From assembly GCA_947494675.1 (NCBI GenBank), contig CANLVP010000001.1, positions 930,001 through 994,000 on the forward strand: 64,000 bases of DNA, read 5' to 3'. The DNA is from an uncultured Paracoccaceae bacterium. Its GTDB lineage: Bacteria > Pseudomonadota > Alphaproteobacteria > Rhodobacterales > Rhodobacteraceae. This document shows, piece by piece, positions 42,509-61,342 of this stretch. A model generated the notes under the pieces. That model worked only from the letters and a program-made list of their open reading frames with translations, was not told the origin of the DNA and searched no databases. Made by a program: the position numbers and the translations under genes. The stretch's first letter is position 1, and each line of letters begins with the position of its first letter.

Positions 42509-43271
42509 TGACGTCCCTCTTTTGATCGAGGCGGCAAAGCGCGCCGGTGACATCGCCAAATCCCACTTCGGCCAAAGCCCAGAGGTTTGGGATAAGGCTG
42601 ATAACGCAGGCCCCGTGACCGCCGCCGATCTGGCCGTCAACGCAATGCTGCACGACATGCTGCGCGCCGCGCGGCCTGACTATGGCTGGCTGTCGGAAGA
42701 GGACGAAGACAGCACCGCCCGTCAAAGCGCCGAGCGCGTCTTTGTGATCGACCCCATCGACGGCACCCGCGCCTTTATCGAAGGCGGCAAGGACTGGGGT
42801 CACTCCATCGCCGTGGTCGAAAATGGCAACCCCATTGCCGCCGCCGTCGCCATGCCAATGCGTGACCAGATTTATAGCGCGGGCCTTGGGGCGGGTGCAT
42901 ATCTGAATGATGAGACGATCAACGTCAGCGCGGAAACCGACCCCGCCAAAACCGCGGTCCTGACGGCCAAGCCCAACCTGTTCCCAGAACACTGGACAGG
43001 TGGCACCCCGCCGCCTTTCAAGCGCACCTTTCGGTCATCGCTCGCCTACCGGATGGCGCTGGCCGCCTGCGGTCGCTTTGATGCCATGCTGACCCTGCGC
43101 CCCACATGGGAATGGGACATCGCGGCGGGCACGCTTTTGGTGACAGAGGCGGGCGGCACCGTGACCGACCACACCGGGGCCACGCTGCGGTTCAACAATG
43201 GCCACCCACAGGTGCAAAGCGTGCTTGCTGGCGGGGCCGTACACGCACCGATCCTGGCAGCACTTGCCTAG
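42495..43271 (+). CDS. Inositol-monophosphatase-family phosphatase (CysQ/HisN-like)
   Basis: About 258 residues from a TTG at 42495 (CTG at 42498 is the alternative), overlapping the pmbA stop. All metal sites are intact: GWLSEEDED, VIDPIDGTRAFIEG and WEWDIAAGTLLVTEAGG. The DGTRAFIEG form favours 3'(2'),5'-bisphosphate nucleotidase (CysQ) or histidinol phosphatase (HisN) over inositol phosphatase. In relatives this gene is followed at once by DUF4170, a Kdo-transferase gene and lpxK; here an 18-kb catabolic block intervenes, with its GntR gene overlapping this stop by four bases. Confidence 0.85.
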   Translation: MLATDDVPLLIEAAKRAGDIAKSHFGQSPEVWDKADNAGPVTAADLAVNAMLHDMLRAARPDYGWLSEEDEDSTARQSAERVFVIDPIDGTRAFIEGGKDWGHSIAVVENGNPIAAAVAMPMRDQIYSAGLGAGAYLNDETINVSAETDPAKTAVLTAKPNLFPEHWTGGTPPPFKRTFRSSLAYRMALAACGRFDAMLTLRPTWEWDIAAGTLLVTEAGGTVTDHTGATLRFNNGHPQVQSVLAGGAVHAPILAALA

Positions 43272-43936
43272 GTAATATGCGCCATCAGGAAACCGCCCGT
43301 CACCTCGTAATGTGACACCAGCAGTTTGACGGCCTTTTCCTCATCCGACGAAAGCGCGGCATCAAGGATCTGGCGGTGCTCATCCTCAATCGCGCGGCCC
43401 TTATAGGTCGATGAGCGTCCGGCAAGATAACGGTAGCGGATATTCAGATCATATAGCTGGCTGCAAAACCGCAGCAGCAGCGGCGACTGACAATTCCCAA
43501 TCAGCGCCATGTGGAAATTCTTGTGTTCCCGCTCAAACCCGTCCGACCGTTCAGCGGCCAGCTTGGTCATCCGGTGGTGCACCAGCACAAGGTTCTCTTC
43601 CCATTTTCCGGTGGCGTTTTGCATGCTCTTGCGCAGGGCTTTAGCCTCGAGCGAGCAGCGCAGTTCCAGAATTTCGTCAAAGTTCTCGCGGCTTGTCTCA
43701 GCCGCGCGAAACCCGCGCTGTTCATGCCGCACGACCAGCTGATCGGACACCAACAGGCTCAGCGCCTCGCGGATCGGGGATGCGCCAGTGCCCAGCTTTT
43801 CGCGCAGGGCACTGATCTTAAGCTTTTCACCCGGCGCAAGGTCACCCGTCAGGATCAGCAACCGCAGCTTGTTATAGGCAAGCGTGGTCGCAGAGTCTTT
43901 CTGGTTGGGGGATGCGCCGAATGAAAGGTCCATCAT
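43268..43936 (-). CDS. GntR-family (FCD/FadR subgroup) transcriptional regulator
   Basis: 222 residues. N-terminal winged helix: AYNKLRLLILTGDLAPGEKLKISALREKLGTGASPIREALSLL with the classical PIREAL recognition helix. C-terminal FCD ligand domain: LRCSLEAKALR, FHMALIG and DEHRQILDAALS, with the usual metal-binding His/Asp. Last gene of the eight-gene reverse operon, so probably autoregulated. The best candidate to bind the three AAAATCGAT palindromes at 50314, 50799 and 61325. Inducer unknown; MatR of rhizobial malonate operons is in the same subgroup. Confidence 0.92.
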   Translation of the reverse strand: MMDLSFGASPNQKDSATTLAYNKLRLLILTGDLAPGEKLKISALREKLGTGASPIREALSLLVSDQLVVRHEQRGFRAAETSRENFDEILELRCSLEAKALRKSMQNATGKWEENLVLVHHRMTKLAAERSDGFEREHKNFHMALIGNCQSPLLLRFCSQLYDLNIRYRYLAGRSSTYKGRAIEDEHRQILDAALSSDEEKAVKLLVSHYEVTGGFLMAHIT

Positions 43937-43942
43937 GTTCCT

Positions 43943-45154
43943 TTAGCTGGCTTTGACCGCAGCAACAATGTTGGCGAACTCTTCGTTGGACAAAACATCT
44001 CGCTTGGCGATGCCGGCCTTTTTGACCTCACCCAGAATTGCGCCGATCTTGTCGTCGTCCAGCTCGCCCATGCCCAGCTCGCCCATCTTGTAGATGATGG
44101 ATGCTTTGCCTGACTTTTTGCCCAGAACCACTTCGCCCTCTTTGCCGGTCAGGCTGGGGTGCGTGGCGAACATGACCAGCGGGTCGTTCATCACATAGTT
44201 GATGCCGATCCCGCTTTCCCGGATGAAGTTGCCGTGGCCCAGAACCGGCTTGTTACGGGCAATCGGGATGTTGGATTTGGCGGCGATCATCTCGGCCAGT
44301 TCGGGGATCTTATCCAGCTTGTATTGCGTGTCGTAGCCATACAGCAGATGCAGGCCCATCATCAGCTCTTCAAGGGCCGCATTCCCCGTCCGCTCCCCCA
44401 AGCCATTGGCGCAGGAATGCACGCAGACCGCACCCGCCGTGACAGCAGCGAGTTCAGTGGCGACACCCATGCCGAAATCATTGTGCGTGTGGATCTCAAT
44501 TGGCAGGCCGGTCATGTCGTTGACCCAGCGCACCATATGCTTGATCGCCTCTGGCGTCGCACAGCCCATCGTATCAACAATGCCGATGCTGTCCGGTGGC
44601 GCGTTGTCCATGATGTAGTTGCACAGGTTGGTCAGATCATCCTTGCGCGCGCGCGTGGTGTCATAGGGAAAGAACAGCGCGTGCAGCCCGTTTTCGCGGG
44701 CATAGTTGATCACAGGCGCGGTTTTCTTGGCCACGTCTTCCCATGTCCAGCCAAACTGCGTGACCAGCTTAGGATAGCCGATTGGCACCTCAATCACGAC
44801 ACCATCGGCGCCGCATTCCAGCGCCAGATCAATGTCTTTCTGCATCGCGCGGGCAAAGGTGAAAATCTTCGACTTCAGCCCAAGCTTTGAAATCTCCTTG
44901 ATCGCGGTCTGATCGTCTGGCGACACCGCTGGCATCCCCGCCTCGATCCGGTCGACGCCAAGCTCATCCAACTTTGTCGCAATCTCGATCTTATCATCGA
45001 CAGAGAACACAACGCCCGGCGTCTGCTCGCCATCGCGCAGGGTCGCGTCGTGAATTTCGACCTTTTCGGGCAAGTTCAACCCACCCCGGACATCCGCCTC
45101 AAAGTTGTAGGGGCTAACCCACCATTTGCCATCTTCAAGATGTGTTTCGCGCAT
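43943..45154 (-). CDS. DRE-TIM metallolyase, homocitrate/isopropylmalate synthase-like
   Basis: 403 residues. The DRE-TIM active site is complete: IHDATLRDGEQTPGVVFS near residue 33, IEIHTHNDFGMGVA (metal-binding HxH) and ANGLGERTGNAALEE, so a Claisen-type acyl transfer between acyl-CoA and a 2-oxoacid, or a retro-aldol lyase, is expected. It lacks the regulatory domain of LeuA. The context (dioxygenase, TRAP transporter, GntR) is catabolic, not leucine or lysine biosynthesis, so the true substrate is probably different. Six bases before the GntR start, same transcript. Confidence 0.78.
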   Translation of the reverse strand: MRETHLEDGKWWVSPYNFEADVRGGLNLPEKVEIHDATLRDGEQTPGVVFSVDDKIEIATKLDELGVDRIEAGMPAVSPDDQTAIKEISKLGLKSKIFTFARAMQKDIDLALECGADGVVIEVPIGYPKLVTQFGWTWEDVAKKTAPVINYARENGLHALFFPYDTTRARKDDLTNLCNYIMDNAPPDSIGIVDTMGCATPEAIKHMVRWVNDMTGLPIEIHTHNDFGMGVATELAAVTAGAVCVHSCANGLGERTGNAALEELMMGLHLLYGYDTQYKLDKIPELAEMIAAKSNIPIARNKPVLGHGNFIRESGIGINYVMNDPLVMFATHPSLTGKEGEVVLGKKSGKASIIYKMGELGMGELDDDKIGAILGEVKKAGIAKRDVLSNEEFANIVAAVKAS

Positions 45155-45181: not shown

Positions 45182-46057
45182 TTAAGTGTTTTCGGGGACA
45201 AGGACGAAGTCAAAATCGACCTTGTAATAGGGAACGGTGGCATTGCGGCCAATAGCCAGATCATCGGGTAAAGCGTCAAGATCGGTGGATTCCACGTAGT
45301 CCATGATCAGGTCTTCGCGGACGCCAAAGACCGCGTCGGTATCAAGGTAGGGATCGCCATTGGCAAAGACCTCCGTCACCAGCGATCTCAGCCCGTCTGC
45401 CTGCACAATGAAATGCAAGTGCGAGGGCCGCCAAGGCGTGCGCCCGGTGGCACGGAACAGCTCACCCACCGGGCCATCATCGGGTACCTTATAGGGGGCG
45501 GGCTTGACCGTGGTGATGGCATATCGCCCATCCGCGCCAGTCTTCATCGAACAGCACAGGTTAAAGTCGTCCTGCGCGCCATCCTGGCTGTAATAGAGAC
45601 CGTTTTCAGCCGTCTGCCACAGCTCGATCATCGCGCCTTCGACCGGGTTGCCATCGACATCACGCACGTAGCCTTCGACCACGACCGTGGCACCGTCGTT
45701 GTCCTGCTTGATGTCACCACCCACGGGCAGCAAGGGCGCGCCGACCGAATGGAACGGCCCCAGCACGCTGGACGATGTGCCGTCGTGTTGCGACCCGATC
45801 ATATCGACCAAGGACGACAGGCCCGTCACGTCAGAGATCAGCACAAACTCATTGCGCTCATCGTCCGTAATCTTGCCTGCATCCGTCACAAACTTCAGCG
45901 CCCGCGCCCATTCCGCATGGGTCAGCTGCGTCTCTTTCGCAAAGGCATGCAGATGCTCGACCATGGATTTCAGCACAAACATCGTGCGCGGATCGGTGTC
46001 GTCACTGCAGTAGTTCAGGAACGCCTGCGTGATGGTGTCGATTGTGACGTTCTTCAT
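45182..46057 (-). CDS. Intradiol ring-cleavage dioxygenase, hydroxyquinol 1,2-dioxygenase-like
   Basis: 291 residues. The N-terminal dimerisation domain (FLNYCSDDTDPRTMFVLKSMVEHLHAF) belongs to the catechol/hydroxyquinol group. Fe(III) ligands are visible: Tyr156 (GLYYSQ), Tyr189 (APYKVPDDGPVG), His213 and His215 (PSHLHFIV), with the same spacing as hydroxyquinol 1,2-dioxygenase. The segment VLGPFHSVGAPLLPVGGDI also fits that subgroup. The product of hydroxyquinol cleavage would be maleylacetate, yet no maleylacetate reductase is in the window. Operon with the TRAP permease upstream (18-base gap). Confidence 0.85.
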   Translation of the reverse strand: MKNVTIDTITQAFLNYCSDDTDPRTMFVLKSMVEHLHAFAKETQLTHAEWARALKFVTDAGKITDDERNEFVLISDVTGLSSLVDMIGSQHDGTSSSVLGPFHSVGAPLLPVGGDIKQDNDGATVVVEGYVRDVDGNPVEGAMIELWQTAENGLYYSQDGAQDDFNLCCSMKTGADGRYAITTVKPAPYKVPDDGPVGELFRATGRTPWRPSHLHFIVQADGLRSLVTEVFANGDPYLDTDAVFGVREDLIMDYVESTDLDALPDDLAIGRNATVPYYKVDFDFVLVPENT

Positions 46058-46075: not shown

Positions 46076-47383
46076 TTAAAGTAGTGCGGTGGACAGGATG
46101 GGGTATTGGATCAACAGGATCAGCACCAACAGCATCAAGAAAGCAAAGGGTAAAGCCCCAAGAAACACATCCTTGAGCGAGATATTGGGATCGTTCAGCG
46201 TGCTTTTGATCACAAAACAAGAGATGCCAAGCGGCGGCGTCAGCAGCCCAATCTCGGCCCCGATCACGGTGATGATGCCGAACCAGATCAGGCTTAGCCC
46301 CATGCCCTCAATCAAGGTGATGAACAGCGGCACGACAATCAGAATGATAGATGCGGTATCCAGCAGCGTGCCAAGCACCAGCATCAACAAAACATAAAGC
46401 AGCATGATCTGGAAGAACGACAGGTTCCAGGATTGCAGCAACGAATCCAGCTGATTGGGCAGACCCGCAAAGCCCAGCATCCGGCTGTAAAAGGACGCCA
46501 TGGTGATCAGCAGCAGGATCGCTGCCGTGATATGGCCAGTTTCGACAAGCGTGTCCCAGAAGTCTTTCCAAGACATCGACTGCCGCGCGACAGCCACGAT
46601 CAGCGCCAGCGACGCGCCTGCAGCCCCCGCCTCAACCGGTGTTAGCCAACCTGTGTAGATGCCGCCAAGCACCAGCAGGATCAGGGCAACAACAGGCCAT
46701 GCCTTTGAAAACATCTCACCATTGCTCATCGCAGCAATGCCGTCTGCCTTGATGTTGTCGCCGATAAAGGACGGCCAAAAGCGTGCCATCAGATAGATCG
46801 CAGCCATGTAGACCGCCGTCAGGATCAGGCCGGGAATGATCCCCGCAAGGAACATTTCCCCGACCGAAACCTCGGCGACAAAGGAATAGATGATCAGCAT
46901 CGCAGAGGGCGGAATGATCATGCCCAGCACCGATGACCCGGCCACAACACCCACCGCAAAGCGCTTGTTGTAGTTGTAGCGCAGCATCTGCGGCACAGCG
47001 ATTTTCGTGAACACTGACGCCGAGGCAATCGACGACCCCGTCACAGCCGCAAAGATCGCATTGGCCCCCACGGTCGCCATGCCGATGCCCGCCAGCACCT
47101 TGCGAAAGGCAGAGTTCATGACATCGTAAATGTCCCTGCCTAATCGGGCCTTCGAAACAAGTAGCCCCATCAGCGTGAACAGCGGGATGGTGGCAAAGTT
47201 GTATTCCGTTACCCCATCGCCGACCGCGACCTTTAAGAAGTTGAAGGCGAGGATCGGTTTGCCGGACATGAACCAGATCGACAGAAACGACACCAGTCCA
47301 AGAGCCACCGGAATATAAAGGCCAAGGTAGACAAGGGCGACGATCGCAAGGACCGACAGCATACCAATTGTAAGGGGATCCAT
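46076..47383 (-). CDS. dctM: TRAP transporter large permease (DctM), system 1
   Basis: 435 residues, about 12 membrane helices. DctM signatures: ATVGANAIFAAVTGSSIASASVFTKIAVPQML, VVAGSSVLGMIIPPSAMLIIYSFV, and the C-terminal GAEIGLLTPPLGISCFVIKS. It is the sodium-coupled channel subunit that works with DctQ (47387) and the binding protein at 48023. Three bases separate it from dctQ. Confidence 0.93.
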   Translation of the reverse strand: MDPLTIGMLSVLAIVALVYLGLYIPVALGLVSFLSIWFMSGKPILAFNFLKVAVGDGVTEYNFATIPLFTLMGLLVSKARLGRDIYDVMNSAFRKVLAGIGMATVGANAIFAAVTGSSIASASVFTKIAVPQMLRYNYNKRFAVGVVAGSSVLGMIIPPSAMLIIYSFVAEVSVGEMFLAGIIPGLILTAVYMAAIYLMARFWPSFIGDNIKADGIAAMSNGEMFSKAWPVVALILLVLGGIYTGWLTPVEAGAAGASLALIVAVARQSMSWKDFWDTLVETGHITAAILLLITMASFYSRMLGFAGLPNQLDSLLQSWNLSFFQIMLLYVLLMLVLGTLLDTASIILIVVPLFITLIEGMGLSLIWFGIITVIGAEIGLLTPPLGISCFVIKSTLNDPNISLKDVFLGALPFAFLMLLVLILLIQYPILSTALL

Positions 47384-47386
47384 GTC

Positions 47387-48013
47387 CTAGACCTCGCCGC
47401 TGGTTTGGGCGGTCACATGGCGGGGATCGCGATCCCCCAAGACCGTTTTGAAAAAGAACAGGATCGCAGCCCAAGCGCAGCCAAAGGCGATCACAAGCCG
47501 GACGGGCCACCAAGGGGCCTGCAAGATGCCGGGCGTGCCAAAGTAGTCGCAGCGCGCCAGCCCGGTCCTGAAATCTGCCCATAAGTTGCCCGTCGGGGCG
47601 GGGCCAAATTCAGGTTGCTGGAAGAAGTGGCAGCTTTCAAAGCTTTCGGTGAATTCGGGCCAGACCGTCCAGACGATCAGGCACATAAAGATGCAAGAGA
47701 TCGCATCAAGAACCCGTGTCAGCGCCCCACCAAAGCGGGGTGCGGTGCTGCGCATCAGCCCCAAAAATCCGTCAGACCGGGTCAAACGCCCCGTCCGCAC
47801 AACGTCTGGCAACTGAAGGAAAACGATCAGCGCCAGCGAAAAGATCACGACCTCGACCACACCGCGAAACGGCGCGTTGAAGAGGTTCCGAGAGATCACG
47901 TCAACATTCATGATGGCAACCAAGGCCAGCAGCACAAAGGCGCCGCTGACATTGGCCGCAATCGCGATCGCCACGACCCAGCGTTCGATTTTTTGCAATA
48001 CCGTGACGATCAT
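47387..48013 (-). CDS. dctQ: TRAP transporter small permease (DctQ), system 1
   Basis: 208 residues with four membrane helices (VAIAIAANVSGAFVLLALVAIM; VVEVVIFSLALIVFLQL; CIFMCLIVWTVW; WWPVRLVIAFGCAWAAILFF). The loop between helices 3 and 4 is unusually long (FTESFESCHFFQQPEFGPAPTG...), explaining why it exceeds the usual 160-180 residues. Part of the DctPQM system with 46076 and 48023. Confidence 0.88.
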   Translation of the reverse strand: MIVTVLQKIERWVVAIAIAANVSGAFVLLALVAIMNVDVISRNLFNAPFRGVVEVVIFSLALIVFLQLPDVVRTGRLTRSDGFLGLMRSTAPRFGGALTRVLDAISCIFMCLIVWTVWPEFTESFESCHFFQQPEFGPAPTGNLWADFRTGLARCDYFGTPGILQAPWWPVRLVIAFGCAWAAILFFFKTVLGDRDPRHVTAQTSGEV

Positions 48014-48022
48014 TGTTTTGGT

Positions 48023-49105
48023 TTACTCCGCAGCCCAGTCGCGCAGCGGCATAAAGCCTGCAGCAGCCAGCTTGCCCATATAGGCTTCCAGCATTTCGGT
48101 GCCGGGTGCGCCCGCGCCGTCCAGACCAGCAGCCCATTCAGCTGCGATGTTTGGCATGGAATTGGCCCAAGCCTGACGCTCTTCCTGGCTCATCTCAACG
48201 ATTGTGCCACCAGCATCGATATAGGCCTGACGCGATGCCTCTGCGCGATCCATCGCGATACCCGCAACATGGTCACGGTATTCGATGGCCACGGTCTGAA
48301 GCACCTCTTTGACCTCATCAGGCAGATCCGCCCAAACGTCGGCATTCACGGTCACTGTCTTTGAGTTCACAGCGCCCAGATCAGCCTGCAGCATGTAAGG
48401 GGCAACCTCGACAAAGTTGAACGTTGCCGCAGCTTCCGGCCACGTCATCGCCGCCTCAACCACGCCAGTTTGCAGCATGTTGTAGAAATCAGGCAGGCCG
48501 CCACGCACACCAGCCGCACCGGGGATGCCTTCAAGATAGCGCAGGTTATAGCCCGCACCGGCAACCTTCAGGCCTTCGATATCCGCCAGGGAATTCAACG
48601 GCTGCGTCGAAAACATCTGGTAGGTGTCCAGCACAACGCCGGTTGCCAGATAAACCTGGTTTTCCGCCGCAAGCTCCGCGCCCATCTGTGGGAATTCGCG
48701 TGCGATTTCATCAACCGCCTGCGCGACAACGCGTGCATCAGACGACACGAAGGGCGTCACAGCCGAAATACCCTGCGATGGCAGGGCGGAGTTGTGGAAA
48801 ATCGTGGTGACGATACCGATATCGCCAAGACCCAGCTTGATGCCCTCCAACACCCCGCGTGGCTTTACGATCTGGCCGCCATAGGCTTCCATCCATTCGA
48901 TCTGATAGTTGCCGCTTTCGGCCAGCAGTTCATTCACGCGTGGAATGAAAAAGCCCGAAAACTCAGCAACCCACATCGACCGCTCTGGATAGCCGTCGAT
49001 GGCCGTCAGATTGATCGTTTCCTGGGCCGATGCCGCTGTCCCGATTGCGCCGGACAGGCCAACCGCAACCCCAGCCGCAAGGGCAATACGTCTTGTGAAA
49101 ATCAT
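48023..49105 (-). CDS. dctP: TRAP transporter substrate-binding protein (DctP), system 1
   Basis: 360 residues. The signal peptide (TRRIALAAGVAVGLSGAIGTAASAQ) contains a twin Arg. The DctP fold follows: QIVKPRGVLEGIKLGLGDIGIVTT, LNSLADIEGLKVAGAG, and the substrate-clamping region GGLPDFYNMLQTGVVEAAMTWPEAA. The Arg of LxGxKxR-like motif that binds carboxylates in DctP appears altered (GLKVAGAG), so the ligand may not be a simple C4-dicarboxylate. First transporter gene in the operon. Confidence 0.9.
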   Translation of the reverse strand: MIFTRRIALAAGVAVGLSGAIGTAASAQETINLTAIDGYPERSMWVAEFSGFFIPRVNELLAESGNYQIEWMEAYGGQIVKPRGVLEGIKLGLGDIGIVTTIFHNSALPSQGISAVTPFVSSDARVVAQAVDEIAREFPQMGAELAAENQVYLATGVVLDTYQMFSTQPLNSLADIEGLKVAGAGYNLRYLEGIPGAAGVRGGLPDFYNMLQTGVVEAAMTWPEAAATFNFVEVAPYMLQADLGAVNSKTVTVNADVWADLPDEVKEVLQTVAIEYRDHVAGIAMDRAEASRQAYIDAGGTIVEMSQEERQAWANSMPNIAAEWAAGLDGAGAPGTEMLEAYMGKLAAAGFMPLRDWAAE

Positions 49106-49141: not shown

Positions 49142-49600
49142 TTAACTGGCCTTGCGCCAGTCTTCGTTGATGATCGTGCCAGCCCCGCGAAACAGCTTTG
49201 CCAAGGGGCAAAACTTCGCGACCTCCTGTGCGACCTGATCCAGCTCTGCCTGTGTGGCAGCGCCGTCAGATACAACTGTCAGATCAATTTCTTCAAACGG
49301 CACGTCGATCTCTTCCTCCAAAGTGACGCCAAGCCGGTTGAAACGCGATTTGACCGAAATCTTCAGGTTGCCGATGTCCACACCCAGCTTGGCCGCGCAT
49401 TTGTGGCCAATGGTGTTTGTGCAGCCCGCCAGCGCGCTCAGCGCTGTGTCGGTCGGTGTAAAGCCAAGGTTTGTGCCGTGGCGTTCGATGGGTTCGTCAA
49501 TGATCGCACTTAGATCACGGGTGCGGACATGAGCGACAGAATGGCTTAGGCAATTTGCCTCAACCGAAAGCGTCACCGATGTTTTCATCTTCACCGCCAT
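49142..49600 (-). CDS. OsmC/Ohr-family protein
   Basis: 152 residues from the ATG at 49600; the frame continues upstream inside the nitroreductase gene. OsmC-type features: TDTALSALAGCTNTIGHKCAAKLGVDI with one reactive Cys and KFCPLAKLFRGAG near the end with the second Cys, giving the C...C pair of the redox-active family. It reduces organic hydroperoxides or acts on thiol adducts. Starts one base after the nitroreductase stop, so strictly co-translated. In a catabolic operon it may protect against reactive intermediates. Confidence 0.85.
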   Translation of the reverse strand: MAVKMKTSVTLSVEANCLSHSVAHVRTRDLSAIIDEPIERHGTNLGFTPTDTALSALAGCTNTIGHKCAAKLGVDIGNLKISVKSRFNRLGVTLEEEIDVPFEEIDLTVVSDGAATQAELDQVAQEVAKFCPLAKLFRGAGTIINEDWRKAS

Positions 49601-49601
49601 G

Positions 49602-50261
49602 TCAAATGATCTCGCAGGCGTCGTCAAAGTCAAACCGCGGCAGCCGCTGGAACAGCGCCGTCTCATCGGCATAACCAAGGTTGCAAAGGAAGTTCGATTT
49701 CAGCGGCGTGCCGTCAAAGAACTCTGCATCCACAATAGCATTGTCGAACCCCGAAATCGCGCCAACATCCAAGCCCAGCGCGCGGGCGGCAATCATGAAA
49801 TAGGCGCCCTGCAAGGTGGAATTACGGAACGCAGTAGATTCGATATGGGCCGCCTTGCCTTCGAACAGATGCCTGCGGTCTTCATGCGGAAACAGCTTGG
49901 GCAGCTGGGTCCAGAACTCCAGATCATATGAGATGATCGCCGTTACAGGCGCGTTCATCACCTTGGGCACATTTGCGGGCTTCAAGGCCTTCGCCAAACG
50001 CTCTTTCGCGGCAACAGACCGCACAAACGTGAACCGCGCGGGGCAAGTGTTCATGCTGGTGGGACCTGCGATCGTCAGCGCGAAGATCTCGTGCAGCAGC
50101 TCATCCGACACCGGCTTATCCGTCCAGGCATAATGCGACCGCGCACCGCGCAGGATCAGATCAATCTCTTTGTCGCCAAGCTCTGTGATCTTGCCGCGCA
50201 AGGCGCGCACATCTTCTTGCGCGGCAGCGCGCAGATCACTCAGTGTCGTCCCGTCTTCCAT
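49602..50261 (-). CDS. Nitroreductase-family protein, RutE-like
   Basis: 219 residues. FMN-binding nitroreductase fold: LILRGARSHYAWTDKPVSDELLHEIF, GPTSMNTCPARFTFVRS (FMN-contacting SxNxxPxRF), and GLDVGAISGFDN with CNLGYADET near the end. This matches the RutE/HadB subgroup, whose characterised member reduces malonic semialdehyde to 3-hydroxypropionate in pyrimidine breakdown; no other rut gene is here. First gene of the reverse operon, 53 bases from the AAAATCGAT palindrome at 50314. Confidence 0.82.
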   Translation of the reverse strand: MEDGTTLSDLRAAAQEDVRALRGKITELGDKEIDLILRGARSHYAWTDKPVSDELLHEIFALTIAGPTSMNTCPARFTFVRSVAAKERLAKALKPANVPKVMNAPVTAIISYDLEFWTQLPKLFPHEDRRHLFEGKAAHIESTAFRNSTLQGAYFMIAARALGLDVGAISGFDNAIVDAEFFDGTPLKSNFLCNLGYADETALFQRLPRFDFDDACEII

Positions 50262-50313
50262 GATGCCTCCCAGAATCTCACCCCCAAAAGTGTCGTGATT
50301 TTTCCCAAATGTC

Positions 50314-50334
50314 CAATAAAATCGATTTTTTATT
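50314..50334. promoter_or_regulatory. Operator-like palindrome between the nitroreductase and YciI genes
   Basis: AATAAAATCGATTTTTTATT at 50315-50334, symmetric around ATCGAT. The 18-base string CAATAAAATCGATTTTTT is identical to the site at 61325-61342 on the other strand. It sits mid-way in the divergent promoter region, 52 bases before the YciI ATG. Confidence 0.72.
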
Positions 50335-50772: not shown

Positions 50773-50798
50773 TTTTGTCGATTTAGCGATATTCATTG

Positions 50799-50816
50799 CA
50801 ATAAAATCGATATTAT
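50799..50816. promoter_or_regulatory. Operator-like palindrome before malonyl-CoA decarboxylase
   Basis: CAATAAAATCGATATTAT: same 13-base left part as the sites at 50314 and 61325, in the same orientation relative to the downstream gene. The last bases TATTAT (50811-50816) resemble a -10 box 30 bases before the ATG, so binding would block the promoter. Confidence 0.68.
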
Positions 50817-53278: not shown

Positions 53279-53301
53279 CCCCACCTGATCCGACACACTT
53301 C

Positions 53302-53335
53302 GGACCGGGCGCATGATCCGCGCCCGGTCCTCTTT
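53302..53335 (+). terminator. Hairpin between dctP and dctQ of system 2
   Basis: GGACCGGGCGC, loop ATGATCC, GCGCCCGGTCC, then TCTTT. A perfect 11-bp GC-rich stem inside the operon; it would give partial termination or protect the dctP mRNA, so that the binding protein is made in excess of the permease. Confidence 0.75.
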
Positions 53336-53358
53336 GCCCTTTCGTCAAAGGATCATCC

Positions 53359-53994
53359 ATGTCGACCCAGACAAACCCAGAGCGCACCGTCCTCGGACGC
53401 CTGAACCGGGGCCTGATGCCAATCGAAGATGCCGCCAACCTCTTGGCCGCCTTCGCGATCATGGCCCTGATGATCCTTGGTGTGTTGCAGATCGTCCTGC
53501 GCACCGTCTTCAACACCCCCATCGATGGCTACATCGACCTGGTCGAGCTTTCGATGGCCTCCATGGCCTTTCTTGGGGCCGCCTATACCCAACGCCTTGG
53601 TAGTCACATCCGGATGGAACTGCTCATAGGCCGCCTCTCTGGCCGCGCCCTTTGGGCGGTTGAGGCTCTGGGTGCCGCCATCGCGATGTTCATCATTGGC
53701 GTGCTGATCTACTACAGCTACGGCCACTTCATGCGCGCCTACACGCTGGGCGACACCACGATTGACGCCGAATACGTCACATGGCCGTCCAAACTGCTGG
53801 TGCCCATCGCCTTTTCGATCTGGTGGTGCCGCTTGGCACTGCAATTCCTTGGCGCACTCCGCCTTGTCGTCTACCCAAACGCCACCCCCATCGCGGTCGT
53901 GATCGCCAAGGACGTGGCCGAACAGGCCCAGGACGAAATCCACGAAGTCATGGGTGACGCCGCCGACCTTTCCGATCCGGGAGACAGCAAATGA
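53359..53994 (+). CDS. dctQ: TRAP transporter small permease (DctQ), system 2
   Basis: 211 residues, four membrane helices (LLAAFAIMALMILGVLQIVLR; LVELSMASMAFLGAAYTQRLG; VEALGAAIAMFIIGVLIYY; LLVPIAFSIWWCRLALQFL) and a long acidic cytoplasmic C terminus (QAQDEIHEVMGDAADLS). It pairs with the dctM gene that overlaps its stop (ATGA). Confidence 0.9.
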   Translation: MSTQTNPERTVLGRLNRGLMPIEDAANLLAAFAIMALMILGVLQIVLRTVFNTPIDGYIDLVELSMASMAFLGAAYTQRLGSHIRMELLIGRLSGRALWAVEALGAAIAMFIIGVLIYYSYGHFMRAYTLGDTTIDAEYVTWPSKLLVPIAFSIWWCRLALQFLGALRLVVYPNATPIAVVIAKDVAEQAQDEIHEVMGDAADLSDPGDSK

Positions 53995-55352
53995 TCCTTG
54001 GCATCGGCATGTCCGACCCGTTCACCGTGGGCATCATCACGCTGTGCCTGCTGCTGTTCCTGATCCTGATCGGCGTCCGCGTGGTCTTTGCCGCCGCCGT
54101 CGTCGGGCTGCTTGGCCTGATTGAGTTGCGCGGCTGGGGCCCTGCCGCTGGCATCGTCGGCACGATCCCGCATTCCAAATCCTCGGCCTATGCGCTCAGC
54201 GTGCTGCCGATGTTCATCTTCATCGGCTTTTTGGCCTTCCACGCGGGCATGACGCAACAACTGTTCGATGCCGCCCGCAAATGGCTCGGCTGGATGCCGG
54301 GTGGCCTGGCCGTGGCCACCGTCTTTGCCACCGCAGGGTTTGCCGCCGTCTCGGGCGCCTCCACCGCAACCGCTGCCGTCTTCAGCCGGGTGGCGATCCC
54401 AGAGATGCTCAAATACGGCTACGACAGGCGCATGGCCGCGGGCGTCGTTGCCTCTGCCGGGACGCTGGCCACGCTGATCCCGCCCTCTGCGATCCTCGTG
54501 ATCTACGCGATCATCGTCGAACAATCGGTGGGCAAACTGCTGCTCGCGGGCTTCCTGCCGGGGATCTTCTCGGCCGTGGTCTATGCCGCGATCATCGTGG
54601 TCTGGGCGATGCTCAAACCCGGCTCTGCCCCGTCTGTCAAAGGCTTCACCTGGGGCGAGCGGATGCAAACCCTGCCCGGCATTTCGCCCATCGTGCTGGT
54701 CGTCGTCATCATCATGACGTCGATCTACGGCGGCTGGGCCACCCCGACAGAGGCGGGCGCCTTGGGTGCATTCGTCGTCTTCATCCTCGCCCTCGTGCGC
54801 GGCACCCCGCTGAAATCGATCAAAGACAGCCTGATGGAAAGCGCCAAGCTGACCGTCATGATCTTTTCGCTGATCTGGGGCGTGCTGATCTTTGTCCGCT
54901 TTCTGGGCTTTTCCGGCATCCCCGGCGCTTTCACCGAATGGATCGTCGGCCTAGACGTCGAGCCGATGACCATCATGATCTGCATCCTGCTGGCCTACGC
55001 CGTGCTGGGCATGTTCATGGACGCCATCGGGATGCTGCTGCTGACGCTGCCCGTGGTCTACCCCGCCGTCATCGCTCTTGGCTTTGACCCGATCTGGTTC
55101 GGCATCATCGCCGTCAAAATGGCCGAGATCTGCCTGATCACGCCCCCCATCGGGTTGAACTGCTTTGTGGTCAACGGCGTCAGGCCGGACATCCCACTTG
55201 GTCAAATTTTCCGTGGTGTCGCGCTCTTCTTTATCGCCGACGTCATCACCATCGCCGCCCTGCTCATGTTCCCAGAGATCGTGACATGGCTGCCAAACTT
55301 TGATTTTGAAGCATGGTGGTCCGGTCTCTGGGCCGCCACCGCCGCCAGCTAA
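53991..55352 (+). CDS. dctM: TRAP transporter large permease (DctM), system 2
   Basis: 453 residues, 12 helices. Signatures: FAAVSGASTATAAVFSRVAIPEMLKYGYDRRMAAGVVASAGTLATLIPPSAILVIYAII, PTEAGALGAFVVF and the C-terminal KMAEICLITPPIGLNCFVVNG. The PPIGLN motif near the end is the usual DctM mark. Sodium-driven uptake with the proteins at 52256 and 53359. Confidence 0.93.
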   Translation: MILGIGMSDPFTVGIITLCLLLFLILIGVRVVFAAAVVGLLGLIELRGWGPAAGIVGTIPHSKSSAYALSVLPMFIFIGFLAFHAGMTQQLFDAARKWLGWMPGGLAVATVFATAGFAAVSGASTATAAVFSRVAIPEMLKYGYDRRMAAGVVASAGTLATLIPPSAILVIYAIIVEQSVGKLLLAGFLPGIFSAVVYAAIIVVWAMLKPGSAPSVKGFTWGERMQTLPGISPIVLVVVIIMTSIYGGWATPTEAGALGAFVVFILALVRGTPLKSIKDSLMESAKLTVMIFSLIWGVLIFVRFLGFSGIPGAFTEWIVGLDVEPMTIMICILLAYAVLGMFMDAIGMLLLTLPVVYPAVIALGFDPIWFGIIAVKMAEICLITPPIGLNCFVVNGVRPDIPLGQIFRGVALFFIADVITIAALLMFPEIVTWLPNFDFEAWWSGLWAATAAS

Positions 55353-55362
55353 GGATAGACTG

Positions 55363-55860
55363 ATGCGCCTTCAAACAAGCTTGCCGCTCGCGACCGCCAA
55401 CGCGATTATCACCGAAGCCCTTATTCTGGGGCGCAAAGCTTCGCTTTTGCCACTCACGGTTGTTGTGCTGGACGCGGGCGGCAAACTGATTGCGATGCAA
55501 TCCGAAGACGGCTCCGGCCTGACCCGTTTCGACATCGCCTTTGGCAAGGCTTACGGCGCGCTTGGCATGGGGATTTCCAGCCGCTTGATCCGGGATCGTC
55601 TGTCCGAACGCCCCGCCTTTCAAAACGCCATCGCCGCCGCCTCTGACGGGCGGTTCATCCCCGTCCCCGGCGGTGTCTTAGTCGAAAACGCGGACGGCAT
55701 CACGCTGGGTGCCGTGGGCATCTCGGGCGATACATCCGACAAAGACGAATACTGCGCGATTGAGGCGATCAAGGCCGCCAACCTCTCCCCCGAACCGGCA
55801 GAGCCGAACCCCGACTGGCGCACTTCATCGCTGTCCGACCACTACCCTGCGTCGACTTAG
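55363..55860 (+). CDS. GlcG/HbpS-family protein
   Basis: 165 residues from the ATG at 55363, ten bases after the dctM stop. GlcG/HbpS (DUF336) features: LPLTVVVLDAGGKLIAMQSEDGSGLTRFDIAFGKAYGALGMG and VPGGVLVENADGITLGAVGISGDTSDKDEYCAIEAI. Members sit in glycolate and other carboxylate or aromatic operons; HbpS binds haem and cobalamin. Here it ends the forward catabolic operon. Exact role unknown. Converges with a cupin gene (four-base overlap). Confidence 0.83.
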   Translation: MRLQTSLPLATANAIITEALILGRKASLLPLTVVVLDAGGKLIAMQSEDGSGLTRFDIAFGKAYGALGMGISSRLIRDRLSERPAFQNAIAAASDGRFIPVPGGVLVENADGITLGAVGISGDTSDKDEYCAIEAIKAANLSPEPAEPNPDWRTSSLSDHYPAST

Positions 55861-56411: not shown

Positions 56412-56446
56412 CGCGCGCATCCCCCTTGCCGTATAGCGACCTTAGC

Positions 56447-57811
56447 ATGAGGGCCGCGCTCCTATCCACTATCCTGATGATCGCAGCCGCGTTTGTGCTT
56501 GGCGCCCGCACCTATGGCGGCCCAGTGTTTGAGGTCGGCGCAGGCATCTGCTTTGCCGCCCTCTGTCTTGTTGGTCTCGCCACGAGCACCCTGCGCGAAT
56601 GGCTGCTTCTAGCCGTGGCCACCGTGCTTGGCATCCTGTTGCTGCAAAGCGAAACCGGGGCCGCCACCTTTGCCGAAGCAATGGGCCTCGCCGCCTTTTT
56701 CTCAGCCTTCATCATGCTGCTGATGGCGCTCAAGATCGCGGCGGAACGGTCCAATTCGGTGCTTGTCGTGGGCCGCTATCTGATTCAGCAACCCGCCGCC
56801 GGACGCTTTATCGCGACGGCCACCGGTGGCCATGCCCTTGGCGTCTTCCTGAACTTTGCCGCGATCAGCCTGATGGCCCCGCTCATCCAAAACGCCGCCA
56901 AACGGCCCGACGGCAGCACCGATACCGATCTGGAACGCCGCCAGCTCTCGGCCCTCTTGCGCGGCTTTGCATGGATCCTCCTCTGGGCGCCCACCACCTT
57001 GGCCCAAGCCGTGCTGCTGACCCTGTTCACAGAGGTTGATCTTGCCCGGATCGTGACCTTGGGCATTCTCACCTCCATCCTGATGATTGGCGTTGGGCTG
57101 TTCTATGACCGGGCCGAATGGCGCGGGGTCGCTGCCGCACCCACCACGCCGCCGCCCTTCCCAAAGGTTGCCCTGCTCCGCCTCGGCACCGTCTGCGCCA
57201 CGCTCATTTTGGCCACCGCAGCCCTGCAGCTTTGGGCCGGGATGACAACCGCGCTGGCCCTGATGTTCGTGGCCCCCAGCGTCACCCTGTTGTGGTTCGC
57301 CGCTCAGCGCCCGCCCGGCGATGCAATCGGGGTGCAGCTCGCCCGGTTCTGGCCCGCCCTCACCGGCAACGCCGCAGGGCTGGCGCGGTCGGCCATCGCA
57401 TTGGGGCTGTCGGGCTTCATCGGTCGCGCCTTGGCAGACGTGCTGCCTATGGCCGCCTTGACGGCACAGCTTGATCTGGCAGGCGTGCCGGGCTGGGCGT
57501 TTCTGGCAGCCCTTCCGGTTCTGATCACAATGGGTGGGCAAATCGCGCTCAGCCCGATCATCCTCGTGGTATTCATTGGACAGGTGGTGCAAAGCATCCC
57601 GAAGCTGCCCGCCGATCCCACCAACATCGTCTTTGCCCTCAGCGCGGGCTGGGCGATTTCGATGTTCGCCTCGCCCAATGCCACCGCAACCTTGTTGATC
57701 TCGGCCACCACGAACATCCCGCCCACGCGCCTCACATGGGGCTGGAACCTGCGCTATGGGTTGATCTGTTACGCTCTGTTGGTGGTGATCTTTGCCCTGA
57801 TCGAGGCCTAG
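56447..57811 (+). CDS. Polytopic membrane transporter, family not identified
   Basis: 454 residues from the ATG at 56447 (a TTG at 56426 is less likely). Around 12 membrane helices and a central charged loop (NAAKRPDGSTDTDLERRQLS). HALGVFLNFAAISLMAPLIQ, WILLWAPTTLAQAVLLTLF and VFALSAGWAISMFASPNATATLLIS suggest an ion-transporter-superfamily carrier of anionic substrates with two hairpin-like regions, but I cannot name the family. Located among the TRAP operons, so it may export or import a pathway intermediate. Divergent from the cupin gene. Confidence 0.55.
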   Translation: MRAALLSTILMIAAAFVLGARTYGGPVFEVGAGICFAALCLVGLATSTLREWLLLAVATVLGILLLQSETGAATFAEAMGLAAFFSAFIMLLMALKIAAERSNSVLVVGRYLIQQPAAGRFIATATGGHALGVFLNFAAISLMAPLIQNAAKRPDGSTDTDLERRQLSALLRGFAWILLWAPTTLAQAVLLTLFTEVDLARIVTLGILTSILMIGVGLFYDRAEWRGVAAAPTTPPPFPKVALLRLGTVCATLILATAALQLWAGMTTALALMFVAPSVTLLWFAAQRPPGDAIGVQLARFWPALTGNAAGLARSAIALGLSGFIGRALADVLPMAALTAQLDLAGVPGWAFLAALPVLITMGGQIALSPIILVVFIGQVVQSIPKLPADPTNIVFALSAGWAISMFASPNATATLLISATTNIPPTRLTWGWNLRYGLICYALLVVIFALIEA

Positions 57812-58389
57812 CGCGGCGGAATGCCCTTGCCGCCGCCCTCTTGGGTCACCCCATCAATCAGCACAAACATGATCGTGCAAGGCTCTGTCCCGCGATTGGC
57901 CCAGGCGTGGTTCGTGCCGCGCTGCACAACGACGTCCCCGGCCTTAAGCAGCACATCATCCTCTTCATTGTCCATCAACATCCAGATCTCACCATTCATG
58001 ACGATGCCGTAGTCCACTGAATCCGTGCGGTGCATCCACGGATGTCGCCCGCCCTGCACCACATTGGCCCCTGCCCCCATCTCGGCAAAGGCATTGGCCC
58101 CATCCTCACTCGACAGCTTGGCCATCACCTCCGGGTCTTCGGGCATGAACTCCACACAGCGAAACACCGACCCATTCTTGGGAGGATGCAGAATGAAATC
58201 GCCCGTGCAAGTCTCCGTCGGGCCGTCATATTCCGCGGGCGTCCGATCGGTCAGCCAGAAATTCGTCAGCCGAACGCCGGGCCGATTGGGCCGCTCCAAC
58301 ATCTGCGTCGCCATCTGGTCGCTTTCGATAATGGCCGTGCCATTTGCATCATGCCCCGTCACAACGCGGCGATACTCTTTGTGTTTCAT
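57808..58389 (-). CDS. Cupin-domain protein of the TAXI-transporter operon
   Basis: 193 residues. The C-terminal cupin barrel has GGRHPWMHRTDSVDYGIVMNGEIWMLMD (motif 1 with His and Glu) and LKAGDVVVQRGTNHAWANRG (motif 2 with His), a complete metal site. The N-terminal part (HDANGTAIIESDQMATQML) is typical of cupins next to aromatic-acid or gentisate-like operons. Overlaps the fused TRAP permease gene (ATGA), so it is the last gene of that operon. Likely an enzyme or sensor acting on the imported acid. Confidence 0.75.
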   Translation of the reverse strand: MKHKEYRRVVTGHDANGTAIIESDQMATQMLERPNRPGVRLTNFWLTDRTPAEYDGPTETCTGDFILHPPKNGSVFRCVEFMPEDPEVMAKLSSEDGANAFAEMGAGANVVQGGRHPWMHRTDSVDYGIVMNGEIWMLMDNEEDDVLLKAGDVVVQRGTNHAWANRGTEPCTIMFVLIDGVTQEGGGKGIPPR

Positions 58390-60269
58390 GCGGTTCTTTC
58401 TTTCGGTTTGGCCATGCGATCAAAGATCACCACGCCGGTAAACAGGATCAACCCAATGGCTGCACTCAGCCAGCCTTGGAACAACAGACACAGCCCCGCG
58501 ACGCCAACGATCACGCGCAGCCACGCAGGCAACGGCGCGTTCAGCGTGCCGATGATCGCCACCGCAATCGCAAAGGTGCCGACGACAGCCGTCACAACAG
58601 CCACCACATTGCCAAGCAGGTCCGCGCCCATCAACAAGCCCGGCCCGTAGACAAATGCGAACGGCAACACAAAGGACGTGGCCGCATAGCTCGCCGCGAC
58701 CCAGCCCACCTTGTTGACATTGGCCCCCGCGATCCCGCCTGCCACATAGGATGCCAGCGCCACTGGCGGTGTGATGGTCGAGATACATCCATAGTAAAAC
58801 ACAAAGAAATGCGCCGTCAGCACTGGCACATCCAGCTTGACCAGCGCGGGCGCCACCACCGTTGCCAGGATTAAATAGGCCGCCGTTGTTGGCAGCCCCA
58901 TGCCCAGGATGATCGAGGTCAGCATGGTGAAGAACAGCGCCAAAAACAGATACCCGCCAGAGGCCACATCGATCAGCGTCGCGATCTTGGACCCAAGGCC
59001 CGTGACCCCCAAAATCCCCGCAATGATCCCCGCAGCCGCACAGGCCGCCGAGATCGTGACAACCGACCGCGCGCCCTCTGACACGGACCGGAACAGCTTT
59101 TCAAAGAACACCCGGTCGATCTTGCGGTTCCAGACGATATCCCCCGCGATCAAGACCACCATCGCCCAAAGTGATGCCATGAAGGGCGAATAGCCCATCA
59201 GCATCATCGTGATCAAAACGCCAAACGCCGCGATAAACGGGCTGCCGTTCAACAACACCTTGGACAGCGCCTCTTCGCTCACAGCCGCCCCTTGGTTCGG
59301 CGCGATGCCGGATTTCACTGCCTGCAAATGCACCACCATAAAGGCGGAGCCAAAGAACAGCAGCGCAGGCACAATCGCCGCAGCCATCACGGCGGTGTAA
59401 GGCACGCCCACAATCTCAGCCATGATGAACGCCGCAGCCCCCATCACCGGCGGCATGATCTGCCCGCCGGTAGAGGCCACAGCTTCAATCGCCGCGGCCT
59501 GATGCGGGGCATAGCCTTCGCGCTTCATGATCGGGATGGTGACTGTGCCGGTCACCGCCACATTGCCCGCCGCCGACCCGCTGACCATGCCAATCAAGGT
59601 CGAAAACAGCACCGCCGACTTGGCCGACGCCGCGCGCAATCCGCGAGTGCAACGCACCGATAATTCAAAGAAGAAATCGCCCGCGCCAAAGTTCGACAAT
59701 AGCGCCCCAAAGATCGTGAAGACGATGATGTAGGTCGCAGCGACCCCCACCGGAATGCCGTAAATTCCTTGGGTATCCGTCGTCAAAACCTGCACGATCC
59801 GCGACAGCGTGGCGCCACGCCCCTCTAACACCCCCGGCATATAGGGGGCGACAAAGGGGTAGAGGAAGAAGACCAAAGTGATCGCCGCGAGGATCAGACC
59901 AATGCCTCTGCGCGCTGCTTCGAACACGATGATCAGCAGCACGACACCGGCATAGAAATCCATGTCTGTGGTGATGCCACCGCTAAAGGCAATCGGCTTC
60001 CACCGGGTCAGCATCCAGACGCTCGCCGCGACGGTTGCCACGACCAAAAGAGCCGAGATCACGCGGTCAATCGAAGTCCCCGCCAGCCTCTCGCTCGCGG
60101 GCTTGATCACGAACAACAGCGACAGCGCCAGCATCACATGTGTGACGCGCATCGGCATGGTGGAAATCGCGATGACGCCGGACACCACCATCAGATGATA
60201 GGCCCCCAACGCCAAACCAGCGAGGAATATGCCGTTCTGTAATGTCAGGTGACGGGTCAGCGATGCCAT
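58386..60269 (-). CDS. TRAP transporter fused permease (4TM/12TM, TAXI type)
   Basis: 627 residues from the ATG at 60269; upstream codons to 60317 look non-coding. The first about 180 residues give a DctQ-like four-helix domain, the rest a DctM-like domain with FSTLIGMVSGSAAGNVAVTGTVTIPIMKREGYAPHQAAAIEAVASTGGQIMPPVMGAAAFIMAEIVGVPY and MGLPTTAAYLILATVVAPALV, as in TAXI systems. It works with the binding protein at 60338 (68 bases upstream). Confidence 0.93.
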   Translation of the reverse strand: MASLTRHLTLQNGIFLAGLALGAYHLMVVSGVIAISTMPMRVTHVMLALSLLFVIKPASERLAGTSIDRVISALLVVATVAASVWMLTRWKPIAFSGGITTDMDFYAGVVLLIIVFEAARRGIGLILAAITLVFFLYPFVAPYMPGVLEGRGATLSRIVQVLTTDTQGIYGIPVGVAATYIIVFTIFGALLSNFGAGDFFFELSVRCTRGLRAASAKSAVLFSTLIGMVSGSAAGNVAVTGTVTIPIMKREGYAPHQAAAIEAVASTGGQIMPPVMGAAAFIMAEIVGVPYTAVMAAAIVPALLFFGSAFMVVHLQAVKSGIAPNQGAAVSEEALSKVLLNGSPFIAAFGVLITMMLMGYSPFMASLWAMVVLIAGDIVWNRKIDRVFFEKLFRSVSEGARSVVTISAACAAAGIIAGILGVTGLGSKIATLIDVASGGYLFLALFFTMLTSIILGMGLPTTAAYLILATVVAPALVKLDVPVLTAHFFVFYYGCISTITPPVALASYVAGGIAGANVNKVGWVAASYAATSFVLPFAFVYGPGLLMGADLLGNVVAVVTAVVGTFAIAVAIIGTLNAPLPAWLRVIVGVAGLCLLFQGWLSAAIGLILFTGVVIFDRMAKPKERTA

Positions 60270-60337
60270 GGGAAACCTAGTCGCAAAAGGAAAGTGAGGC
60301 GCAGTCGCGCGCCTCACCCTTGTCTTAAGTCAGCAGC

Positions 60338-61270
60338 TTATTGCCCGTCGAAATAGGCCTGCGCCCCGGCATGCAGCGGGATCGCAAGGTTCAACGACAT
60401 CGCCGGATCAATCTGGCGCGCGTTGGCGTTTTCCGCCTGCAACTCTTCCAGATTGTCAAAGATCGCCGCCGTCACCGCCTGCACCGTCGCCGCATCAAGG
60501 CTGTTGGGTGCCACAAGCATGTTGTTCACACCGATCACACGGCCCGCTTCGGCGGTGCCATAGACATCGGCAGGTACTTCAACCTCGACAAAGGCGCTGT
60601 TGGCCTCAAGTGCGGCCTCAAGCATGCCTTCGGAAAAATCGATATAGCGCAGCTCGGCCCCGGCCGTTGCCTGCATCACCGCACCAGACGGAAAGCCCGA
60701 CAGCGCGAGGGTCGCATCGACCGTGCCATCGGTCAGCTGGCTAAAGCCGTCGGCATAGGATACGAAACTTGGTGTGATATCCTCGACCGACATGTCATGC
60801 AGCGGGAAAAGGAAGTTCACAAACCCCAAGGTGCCGCCGCCTGCTGGACCCACGGCCACGCGCTTGCCGCGCAGGTCTTCGATGGTCTGAATATCGCTAT
60901 CGGCCAAGACCATCATGTGCAGCACCGATGGGTGCAACGCCGCAACCGCGCCAATATCAATCGGGCCGGTGCCGCTGTAAGGACCCACGCCCTTGGTCGC
61001 CAAAACGGCAAGGTTGTTGTTGGTGATCGCGATTTCAACTTCGCCGCTGGCAATCAGATTGGGGTTCTGCACCGACCCGCCGGTGACAATCGGCACCATC
61101 GAAATGCCGTTGCCCGCATGTTCATTCACGACGTTCGAAATGCTCTGCCCCATCGGGTAGAACGCGCCACCCAAAGATGCTGTGCCGATACGGAGTTCTT
61201 CTGCGGCTGCGGCGGTGCCCAGCACCGTGATCGCAAACGCGCCCGCCAGATTTTTCAAAGAAATGGTCAT
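60338..61270 (-). CDS. TAXI-family TRAP solute-binding protein
   Basis: 310 residues with a signal peptide (LKNLAGAFAITVLGTAAAA). TAXI motifs: LRIGTASLGGAFYPMGQSISNVVNEHAG, the SGEVEIAITNNNLAVLATKG segment, and LRGKRVAVGPAGGGT. Ligands of known family members include glutamate/glutamine-like compounds and other organic acids, so no ligand is proposed. First gene of its operon; AAAATCGAT palindrome 55 bases upstream. GGGAGGAATCT precedes the ATG. Confidence 0.92.
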   Translation of the reverse strand: MTISLKNLAGAFAITVLGTAAAAEELRIGTASLGGAFYPMGQSISNVVNEHAGNGISMVPIVTGGSVQNPNLIASGEVEIAITNNNLAVLATKGVGPYSGTGPIDIGAVAALHPSVLHMMVLADSDIQTIEDLRGKRVAVGPAGGGTLGFVNFLFPLHDMSVEDITPSFVSYADGFSQLTDGTVDATLALSGFPSGAVMQATAGAELRYIDFSEGMLEAALEANSAFVEVEVPADVYGTAEAGRVIGVNNMLVAPNSLDAATVQAVTAAIFDNLEELQAENANARQIDPAMSLNLAIPLHAGAQAYFDGQ

Positions 61271-61324
61271 AGATTCCTCCCTCTATTCTGTGGCCACAAT
61301 ACCTATGTTTTTGCAAATTTCTAC

Positions 61325-61342
61325 AAAAAATCGATTTTATTG
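61325..61342. promoter_or_regulatory. Operator-like palindrome before the TAXI operon
   Basis: On the minus strand CAATAAAATCGATTTTTT, 18 bases identical to the site at 50314-50331 and oriented the same way towards its target gene. Located 55 bases upstream of the TAXI start codon. Confidence 0.72.

Follow-up and report, generated by a model that had tools for sequence, protein, structure and literature searches.

The question raised by a 64,000-nucleotide stretch of the genome of an uncultured Paracoccaceae bacterium (contig CANLVP010000001.1, positions 930,001 to 994,000; hereafter the window) is what controls its cluster of three TRAP transporter operons and a malonyl-CoA decarboxylase (MCD) gene. 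Copies of one short motif stand ahead of these genes, and a GntR/FCD regulator (gene gntR) is encoded among them. The comparative evidence indicates that the regulon is real, and the three motif copies are very probably operators at which the GntR/FCD protein is predicted to act as a repressor. Four features go beyond an earlier reading of the window made without database searches (the sequence-only reading): the motif is a palindrome, a second element lies 29 bp from it, a fourth operon carries it, and the operator is atypical for the family of the regulator.

The 13-mer CAATAAAATCGAT occurs at three intergenic positions in the window: site A (50314-50326, forward strand), site B (50799-50811, forward strand) and site C (61330-61342, reverse strand). 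The sequence-only reading had reported the motif at three gene-free places, which is borne out, and these are also the sole exact copies in the genome (3,918,034 bases in 9 contigs), all of them in the cluster; three more matches have one mismatch. Chance would give about 0.02 exact copies genome-wide at the 60% GC of the window and 0.12 at 50% GC, and with two mismatches or fewer the window holds four matches against 0.86 expected, a count reached in none of 100 shuffles; the view that such repeats are unlikely by chance thus stands.

The 13-mer is part of the palindrome AAWATCGATWTT, and is therefore an off-centre piece of a symmetric operator. Sites A and C contain the perfect 12-bp palindrome AAAATCGATTTT, which has no exact copy elsewhere in the genome, and it is for this pair that the reported agreement over 18 bases holds. 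The core of site B is AAAATCGATATT, and this is the site found to lie on a TATTAT resembling a -10 box, as had been described for one of the three. The further observation that all sites keep one orientation to the downstream gene says little, since the motif is palindromic and site A sits between divergent genes, its centre 62 bp from the start of the nitroreductase gene (reverse strand) and 63 bp from that of the YciI gene (forward strand). The window sites stand roughly 30-60 bp ahead of start codons. The leftward operon from site A comprises, in order, genes for a nitroreductase, OsmC, TRAP transporter 1 (TRAP1), an intradiol dioxygenase, an HMGL-like enzyme and gntR, so that with three sites each of the three TRAP operons, as well as gntR, can be reached.

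A scoring matrix was built from 149 18-mers from relatives, with the present genome outside the loci used; its training sites were picked by consensus, and the matrix is thus not independent of that consensus. The three window sites score 29.3-30.4, the next-best position in the window 13.2, and 40 simulated windows gave scores of at most 21. All 19 places in the genome with one mismatch or fewer to AAWATCGATWTT were scored, and four reach at least 25, namely the three sites of the window plus one ahead of a distal TAXI-TRAP operon; the next two score 17.5 and 16.8. The motif is therefore not widespread in unrelated promoters, as all four strong matches lie by cluster or TAXI-TRAP genes.

The GntR protein was searched in 394 genomes of the same family and found in 58 (the present one included) at E-values of 1.3e-53 or lower; the next best genome gave 1.3e-44. 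A first set of 60 loci was taken from 58 relatives (57 orthologues plus G048, the 1.3e-44 genome). A second set of 80 named loci, the best 80 of a longer list, overlaps the first in part and includes Octadecabacter, Roseicyclus, Planktotalea, Shimia, Ruegeria, Labrenzia, Cohaesibacter and Pelagibius. Most of the 60 loci hold the same genes, in varying order. With up to one mismatch and within 300 nt upstream, AAWATCGATWTT is present in the first set before YciI (43/46), gntR (31/57), TAXI (6/8), the binding protein of TRAP transporter 2 (DctP2, 4/6), HMGL (6/15), MCD (6/33) and nitroreductase (15/48); it is absent before DctP1 (0/48), the dioxygenase (0/49) and DctM1 (0/52), all operon-internal genes. 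The maxima over 59 shuffled palindromes were 2 for YciI and GntR and 1 for MCD, TAXI and DctP2. Pooled distinct upstream regions, a larger set that overlaps the 60-locus counts, carry the site before YciI (88/92), GntR (61/121), TAXI (15/19), HMGL (15/35), nitroreductase (32/93), FAH (34/67), MCD (13/66), DctP2 (5/17) and a second cupin (2/18), and never before malonyl-CoA synthase (0/38). At least one non-genic site is found in 74 of the 80 named loci and 54 of the 60 first-set loci, and the median distance from operator to start codon is 35 bp for YciI, 64 bp for GntR and 116 bp for TAXI. The proposed regulon of three TRAP operons and MCD is supported by the recurrence of the palindrome before matching genes in relatives.

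The fourth strong site (C1:695797-695808; L078:5298-5309) has a matrix score of 25.8 and lies some 285 kb from site A, 70 bp ahead of another TAXI-TRAP operon; the genes beside it are presumably GST-, sulfatase- and DUF849-like. Seven orthologues of the distal TAXI gene have at least 66% identity, and four of these (in G376, G223, G370 and G271) have a site scoring 23.0 to 28.3 at 82-116 bp upstream; none of 14 more distant matches scores above 5.8 in the stretch scanned. Of three other places in the genome, C1:694085, with one mismatch, falls inside a gene; at C2:1128165 the best matrix score in the 7-kb stretch is 6.5; and C2:811350 (matrix 17.5), where a lone AAAATCGATATT is flanked by a ferritin-like and a peptidase-like gene, is probably a chance occurrence.

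Several lines connect the operator with GntR. The TRAP1 binding protein (DctP1) is present in 53 of the 394 genomes (E 1e-90), and GntR is present in all 53. The palindrome AAWATCGATWTT is found anywhere in the genome in 53 of 58 genomes with a GntR orthologue versus 115 of 336 without, and a reversed-pattern control in 7 of the 58. Beyond the core genes, the families seen in at least 5 of the 60 loci are FAH, OsmC and malonyl-CoA synthase, with no regulator among them (open reading frames of at least 90 amino acids, clustered at more than 45% identity). The operator also stands before the regulator gene or its operon, as for an autoregulated repressor: directly in 31 of 57 relatives, and here through site A. 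The GntR/FCD protein, which the sequence-only reading had named as the candidate, gains support from the site before its gene, the 53/53 co-occurrence and the lack of a second conserved regulator family; on this comparative evidence it is by far the best candidate regulator, and its binding to the operator is strongly predicted.

A number of observations weigh against this assignment. Twelve of 140 relative loci have no non-genic site at one mismatch; several of them are short or truncated, but L036, L074, L145 and L152, also among the twelve, are at least 14 kb long or complete. Loci L054, L064, L074 and L076 hold no further core cluster gene in the 20 kb around gntR (in the genome of L064, G328, the TRAP1 protein is about 30 kb away). 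The region upstream of gntR is without a site in 26 of 57 relatives at one mismatch and 18 at two, and gntR in the window, being the last gene in the operon behind site A, has no operator directly ahead. Three of the seven close distal-TAXI orthologues lack the site (G126, G072 and G328). The palindrome occurs in so many GntR-less genomes that its presence alone is a weak marker, and it is position that counts; the TRAP1 binding protein without GntR is found in 0 of the 394 genomes, leaving no such negative control. The relatives are not independent, and Fisher values, which ignore kinship, overstate significance. Finally, AAWATCGATWTT lacks the GT..AC usual for the FadR subfamily, and no TKGT/ACMA box is present in it.

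A second element accompanies the operator at many promoters. The best secondary matrix site lies 29 bp away in 63 of 178 sites, the runner-up offset being 28 bp with nine. The tetramer CGAT stands exactly 29 bp before the central C of the operator at YciI (39/88), MCD (6/13), TAXI (4/15), DctP2 (2/7) and GntR (3/62) promoters, and is mirrored to the other side at 29 bp in 7 of 62 GntR promoters; once similar contexts are removed, CGAT stands at 29 bp on either side in 52 of 179 sites, versus a mean of 2.2 per offset. At the distal TAXI site the matrix identifies no 29-bp second element. We infer that the element is a second, weaker dimer site, as the sequence pattern suggests. At YciI promoters it could possibly be a -35 box; TTG precedes the -29 element there and not at TAXI promoters, and for the present we therefore lean towards an accessory half-site. 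At the YciI and MCD promoters the weak copy is upstream of the strong one, a layout that would also fit activation. Activation by GntR, alone or combined with repression, is nonetheless unlikely: the strong site at YciI is near the start codon (the 35-bp median above), and the characterised relative CsiR represses, which by analogy favours repression.

Both sequence and fold mark the regulator as an FCD protein; the operator predicted for it is atypical. It has the domains of the FadR subfamily, GntR (PF00392, E 1.2e-15) and FCD (PF07729, E 4.4e-22), its AlphaFold model has a predicted local distance difference test (pLDDT) value of 89.4, and its best Foldseek matches include McbR, PmiR, AlkR and TM0439. 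The nearest NCBIfam model is CsiR (NF008576, E 6.7e-35), and the score of 120.8 bits against a cut-off of 218 places the protein outside the CsiR equivalogs. Its recognition helix is GASPIREAL. In FadR, Arg-35 and Arg-45 read G (PMC4494728, Table 1); the equivalent residues here, from a hand alignment with the FadR sequence on the R-E-A-L motif, are Ser42, which varies in relatives, and Ala52, which is kept in at least 90% of 45 sequences, neither being arginine. A regulator without either arginine and an operator without GT..AC would fit each other.

The palindromes could alternatively be operators of another regulator encoded elsewhere, for example a MarR, an IclR or a second GntR protein, and the absence of GT..AC speaks for this, as the common consensus of GntR/FadR-type operators is NyGTNxACNy (PMC4494728). 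We consider it improbable all the same: the palindrome precedes gntR itself in more than half of the relatives, GntR accompanies the TRAP1 binding protein in every genome that has it, no other regulator family turned up among the conserved reading frames (at least 90 amino acids) of the cluster loci, and the GntR protein has neither of the G-reading arginines, fitting the operator as found.

A role as core promoter or sigma-factor element, suggested by the overlap with TATTAT at site B, the position 30-60 bp before starts and a TGTCAA box beside the motif at the YciI promoter, is very improbable for a 12-bp palindrome of whose 19 near matches in 3.9 Mb just four score high; the distance to the start codon differs by gene, and TGTCAA is absent from the consensus of the GntR, TAXI, MCD and DctP2 promoters. 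Chance, or recent duplication of intergenic DNA in the cluster, which three near-identical 13-18-mers inside 11 kb might suggest, can be dismissed for practical purposes, as the flanks outside the palindrome differ and the recurrence of sites ahead of the same genes in diverged relatives contradicts it. The TGTCAA box itself is conserved in relatives between the two operator elements of YciI promoters (for example L022:4930-4970). It was considered as a -35 box and rejected, since neither direction shows a conserved -10 at a suitable spacing.

Control by GntR would then work as follows. A GntR dimer is predicted to bind the palindrome, with a second dimer at the weaker copy centred 29 bp away at many promoters. 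The regulated units would be the nitroreductase-TRAP1-dioxygenase-HMGL-gntR operon, the YciI gene, the MCD-TRAP2 operon, the TAXI-TRAP operon and the distal TAXI-TRAP operon, and without inducer GntR would repress these promoters, its own included. We guess that the inducer is a carboxylic acid, either imported by a TRAP transporter or made in the pathway; by releasing GntR it would switch on uptake and a ring-cleavage route to malonate or malonyl-CoA jointly. The coordinates of the genes and sites are collected in Table 1.

Table 1. Genes and predicted regulatory sites of the cluster. Positions are those of the window, except for the FAH hydrolase gene, an example from a relative.
Feature	Position	Strand	Remarks
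GntR/FCD regulator	43268-43936	-	Last gene of nitroreductase-TRAP1 operon; proposed repressor; Pfam GntR and FCD
HMGL-like (isopropylmalate/homocitrate synthase-like) enzyme	43943-45154	-	Pfam HMGL-like
Intradiol dioxygenase	45182-46057	-	Nearest solved relatives are hydroxyquinol 1,2-dioxygenases
TRAP transporter 1 (DctM, DctQ, DctP)	46076-49105	-	Pfam
OsmC-like protein	49142-49606	-	Pfam OsmC
Nitroreductase, malonic semialdehyde reductase family	49602-50261	-	Opens operon 1; NCBIfam NF003768 (269.8 bits; cut-off 152)
Weak second palindrome of A	50286-50303		Centre 29 bp from that of A; matrix 8.3, a score reached at 8 positions of the 64-kb window
Operator A (predicted)	50315-50332		Core AAAATCGATTTT 50318-50329; between nitroreductase operon (-) and YciI gene (+); matrix 30.4, top in window; position conserved in relatives
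YciI-like protein	50386-50772	+	Pfam YCII
Half-site CGATTTA of B	50779-50785	+	29 bp upstream of central C of B; whole-palindrome score only 0.3
Operator B (predicted)	50800-50817		Core AAAATCGATATT 50803-50814; before MCD; overlaps TATTAT 50811-50816; matrix 29.3
Malonyl-CoA decarboxylase (MCD)	50847-52145	+	Pfam MCD and MCD_N
TRAP transporter 2 (DctP, DctQ, DctM)	52256-55352	+	Pfam
HbpS-like protein	55300-55860	+	Pfam HbpS-like, scanned as 55357-55860
TAXI-TRAP operon	57808-61270	-	TAXI binding protein 60338-61270, DctM-type permease 58386-60317, cupin 57808-58389; Pfam; NCBIfam TRAP_TAXI
Weak second palindrome of C	61295-61312		Centre 29 bp from that of C; matrix 4.2; 13 window positions reach 4.1
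Operator C (predicted)	61324-61341		Core AAAATCGATTTT 61327-61338; before TAXI-TRAP operon (-); matrix 29.6
FAH hydrolase gene (example)	L024:3765-4613

Relatives add an FAH hydrolase and a malonyl-CoA synthase to these genes. Among the 58 GntR genomes, HMGL is present in 18 (E 1e-120) and FAH in 34 (E 1e-80), with both in none and neither in six. The synthase is found in 52 of the 58 and was not found at E 1e-100 in the present genome, whose window holds MCD; it is missing from 4 of the 18 HMGL genomes (the present one included), 0 of the 34 FAH genomes and 2 of the 6 with neither. Of the 34 FAH genomes, 21 have the synthase no more than 20 kb from FAH on one contig, and none of the 18 HMGL genomes has it that close to HMGL, counts uncorrected for contig breaks. 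A quick GntR tree, with 27 weak branches among its 56 inner ones, requires four or more switches between the FAH and HMGL states, so that few independent events stand behind the 34 versus 18. As the two genes never occur together and have switched several times, the enzymes may well replace each other. The HMGL-like protein of the window falls below the cut-offs of the NCBIfam models among the matches listed (25 of 29). The set with FAH and the synthase is carried, per its record annotation, by a plasmid of Pacificitalea manganoxidans. This plasmid (L200, NZ_CP021407.1) is 112 kb in size, and the cluster can thus sit on extrachromosomal DNA.

Our guess at the chemistry is a conversion of 2,4-dioxoadipate to pyruvate and malonate or malonyl-CoA. 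Joining all parts gives a tentative reading that is possible and, as a whole, rather doubtful: Rhodobacterales, chiefly marine ones, would have an FCD-GntR regulon not described before, the operator of which would break the GT..AC rule because the regulator lost both G-reading arginines, and would be read by two dimers 29 bp apart; the regulon would take in as many as four TRAP transporters along with a ring-cleavage route giving malonate. In one version FAH would free malonate, which malonyl-CoA synthase would then activate; in the other the HMGL-like enzyme would make malonyl-CoA directly, so that the synthase can be lost. Tetrahydroxybenzenes derived from algal polyphenols, degraded via 2,4-dioxoadipate to pyruvate and malonate, would be one suitable class of substrates.

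By comparison with known regulators, the system is of an ordinary kind; its operator is unusual, and it extends further than the window shows. In Rhizobium, the GntR protein MatR regulates the malonate (mat) operon and is encoded beside malonyl-CoA decarboxylase and malonyl-CoA synthase genes; its operator, ATTGTATACAAT, has the GT..AC pattern, whereas the window operator does not. Compared by description only, the mat cluster resembles the present one in that relatives carry both the decarboxylase and the synthase, and differs in that TRAP, dioxygenase, FAH and HMGL-like genes are added here. CsiR, an FCD-type GntR protein, is a repressor with a footprint over -10 and -35 and with glutarate and L-2-hydroxyglutarate as effectors (PMC6667623). 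It is similar as the nearest NCBIfam model and as a repressor of a dicarboxylate pathway (PMC6667623), and dissimilar in that the window regulator scores well under its cut-off and CsiR controls other genes. LhgR, the L-2-hydroxyglutarate repressor of the GntR family, binds ahead of its target and of its own gene; unlike the operator here, the sequences in its footprints, TAGTCTGACAA and TTGTCTGACAA, follow the GT..AC pattern (PMC8206213). BioR (TTATMKATAA) and NanR (TGGTATAW repeats) are given as FadR-subfamily exceptions to the GT..AC rule (PMC4494728), and share with the present case a non-canonical operator, although theirs differ from AAWATCGATWTT. Additional half-sites near GntR-family operators, which like ours are weaker second elements by a palindrome, are placed 7-12 nt from the site centre in the same source, versus 29 bp here.

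Searches of the open-access PMC literature by gene and regulator names, CsiR included, gave no earlier description of such a system among the papers listed, an absence of little weight, and a search with the operator letters gave no title on such an operator among the matches listed. With this proposal, a regulator present in many Rhodobacterales would gain an operator and a regulon, and TRAP transporters would be tied together by shared control. The joint departure of operator and recognition helix from the family pattern makes it possible to test cleanly how DNA is read by GntR proteins, and the FAH/HMGL exchange points to two enzymes doing one job, which would, if true, define an undescribed catabolic step.

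Two smaller observations concern individual genes. In each of two genomes (G269 and G383), the gene for DctP1 contains a single in-frame TAG. Between two cupin genes of the window, at 56426-57811, lies a gene for a 461-amino-acid protein with no Pfam match, relatives of which adjoin TRAP2 or TAXI genes in 4 of the 60 loci.

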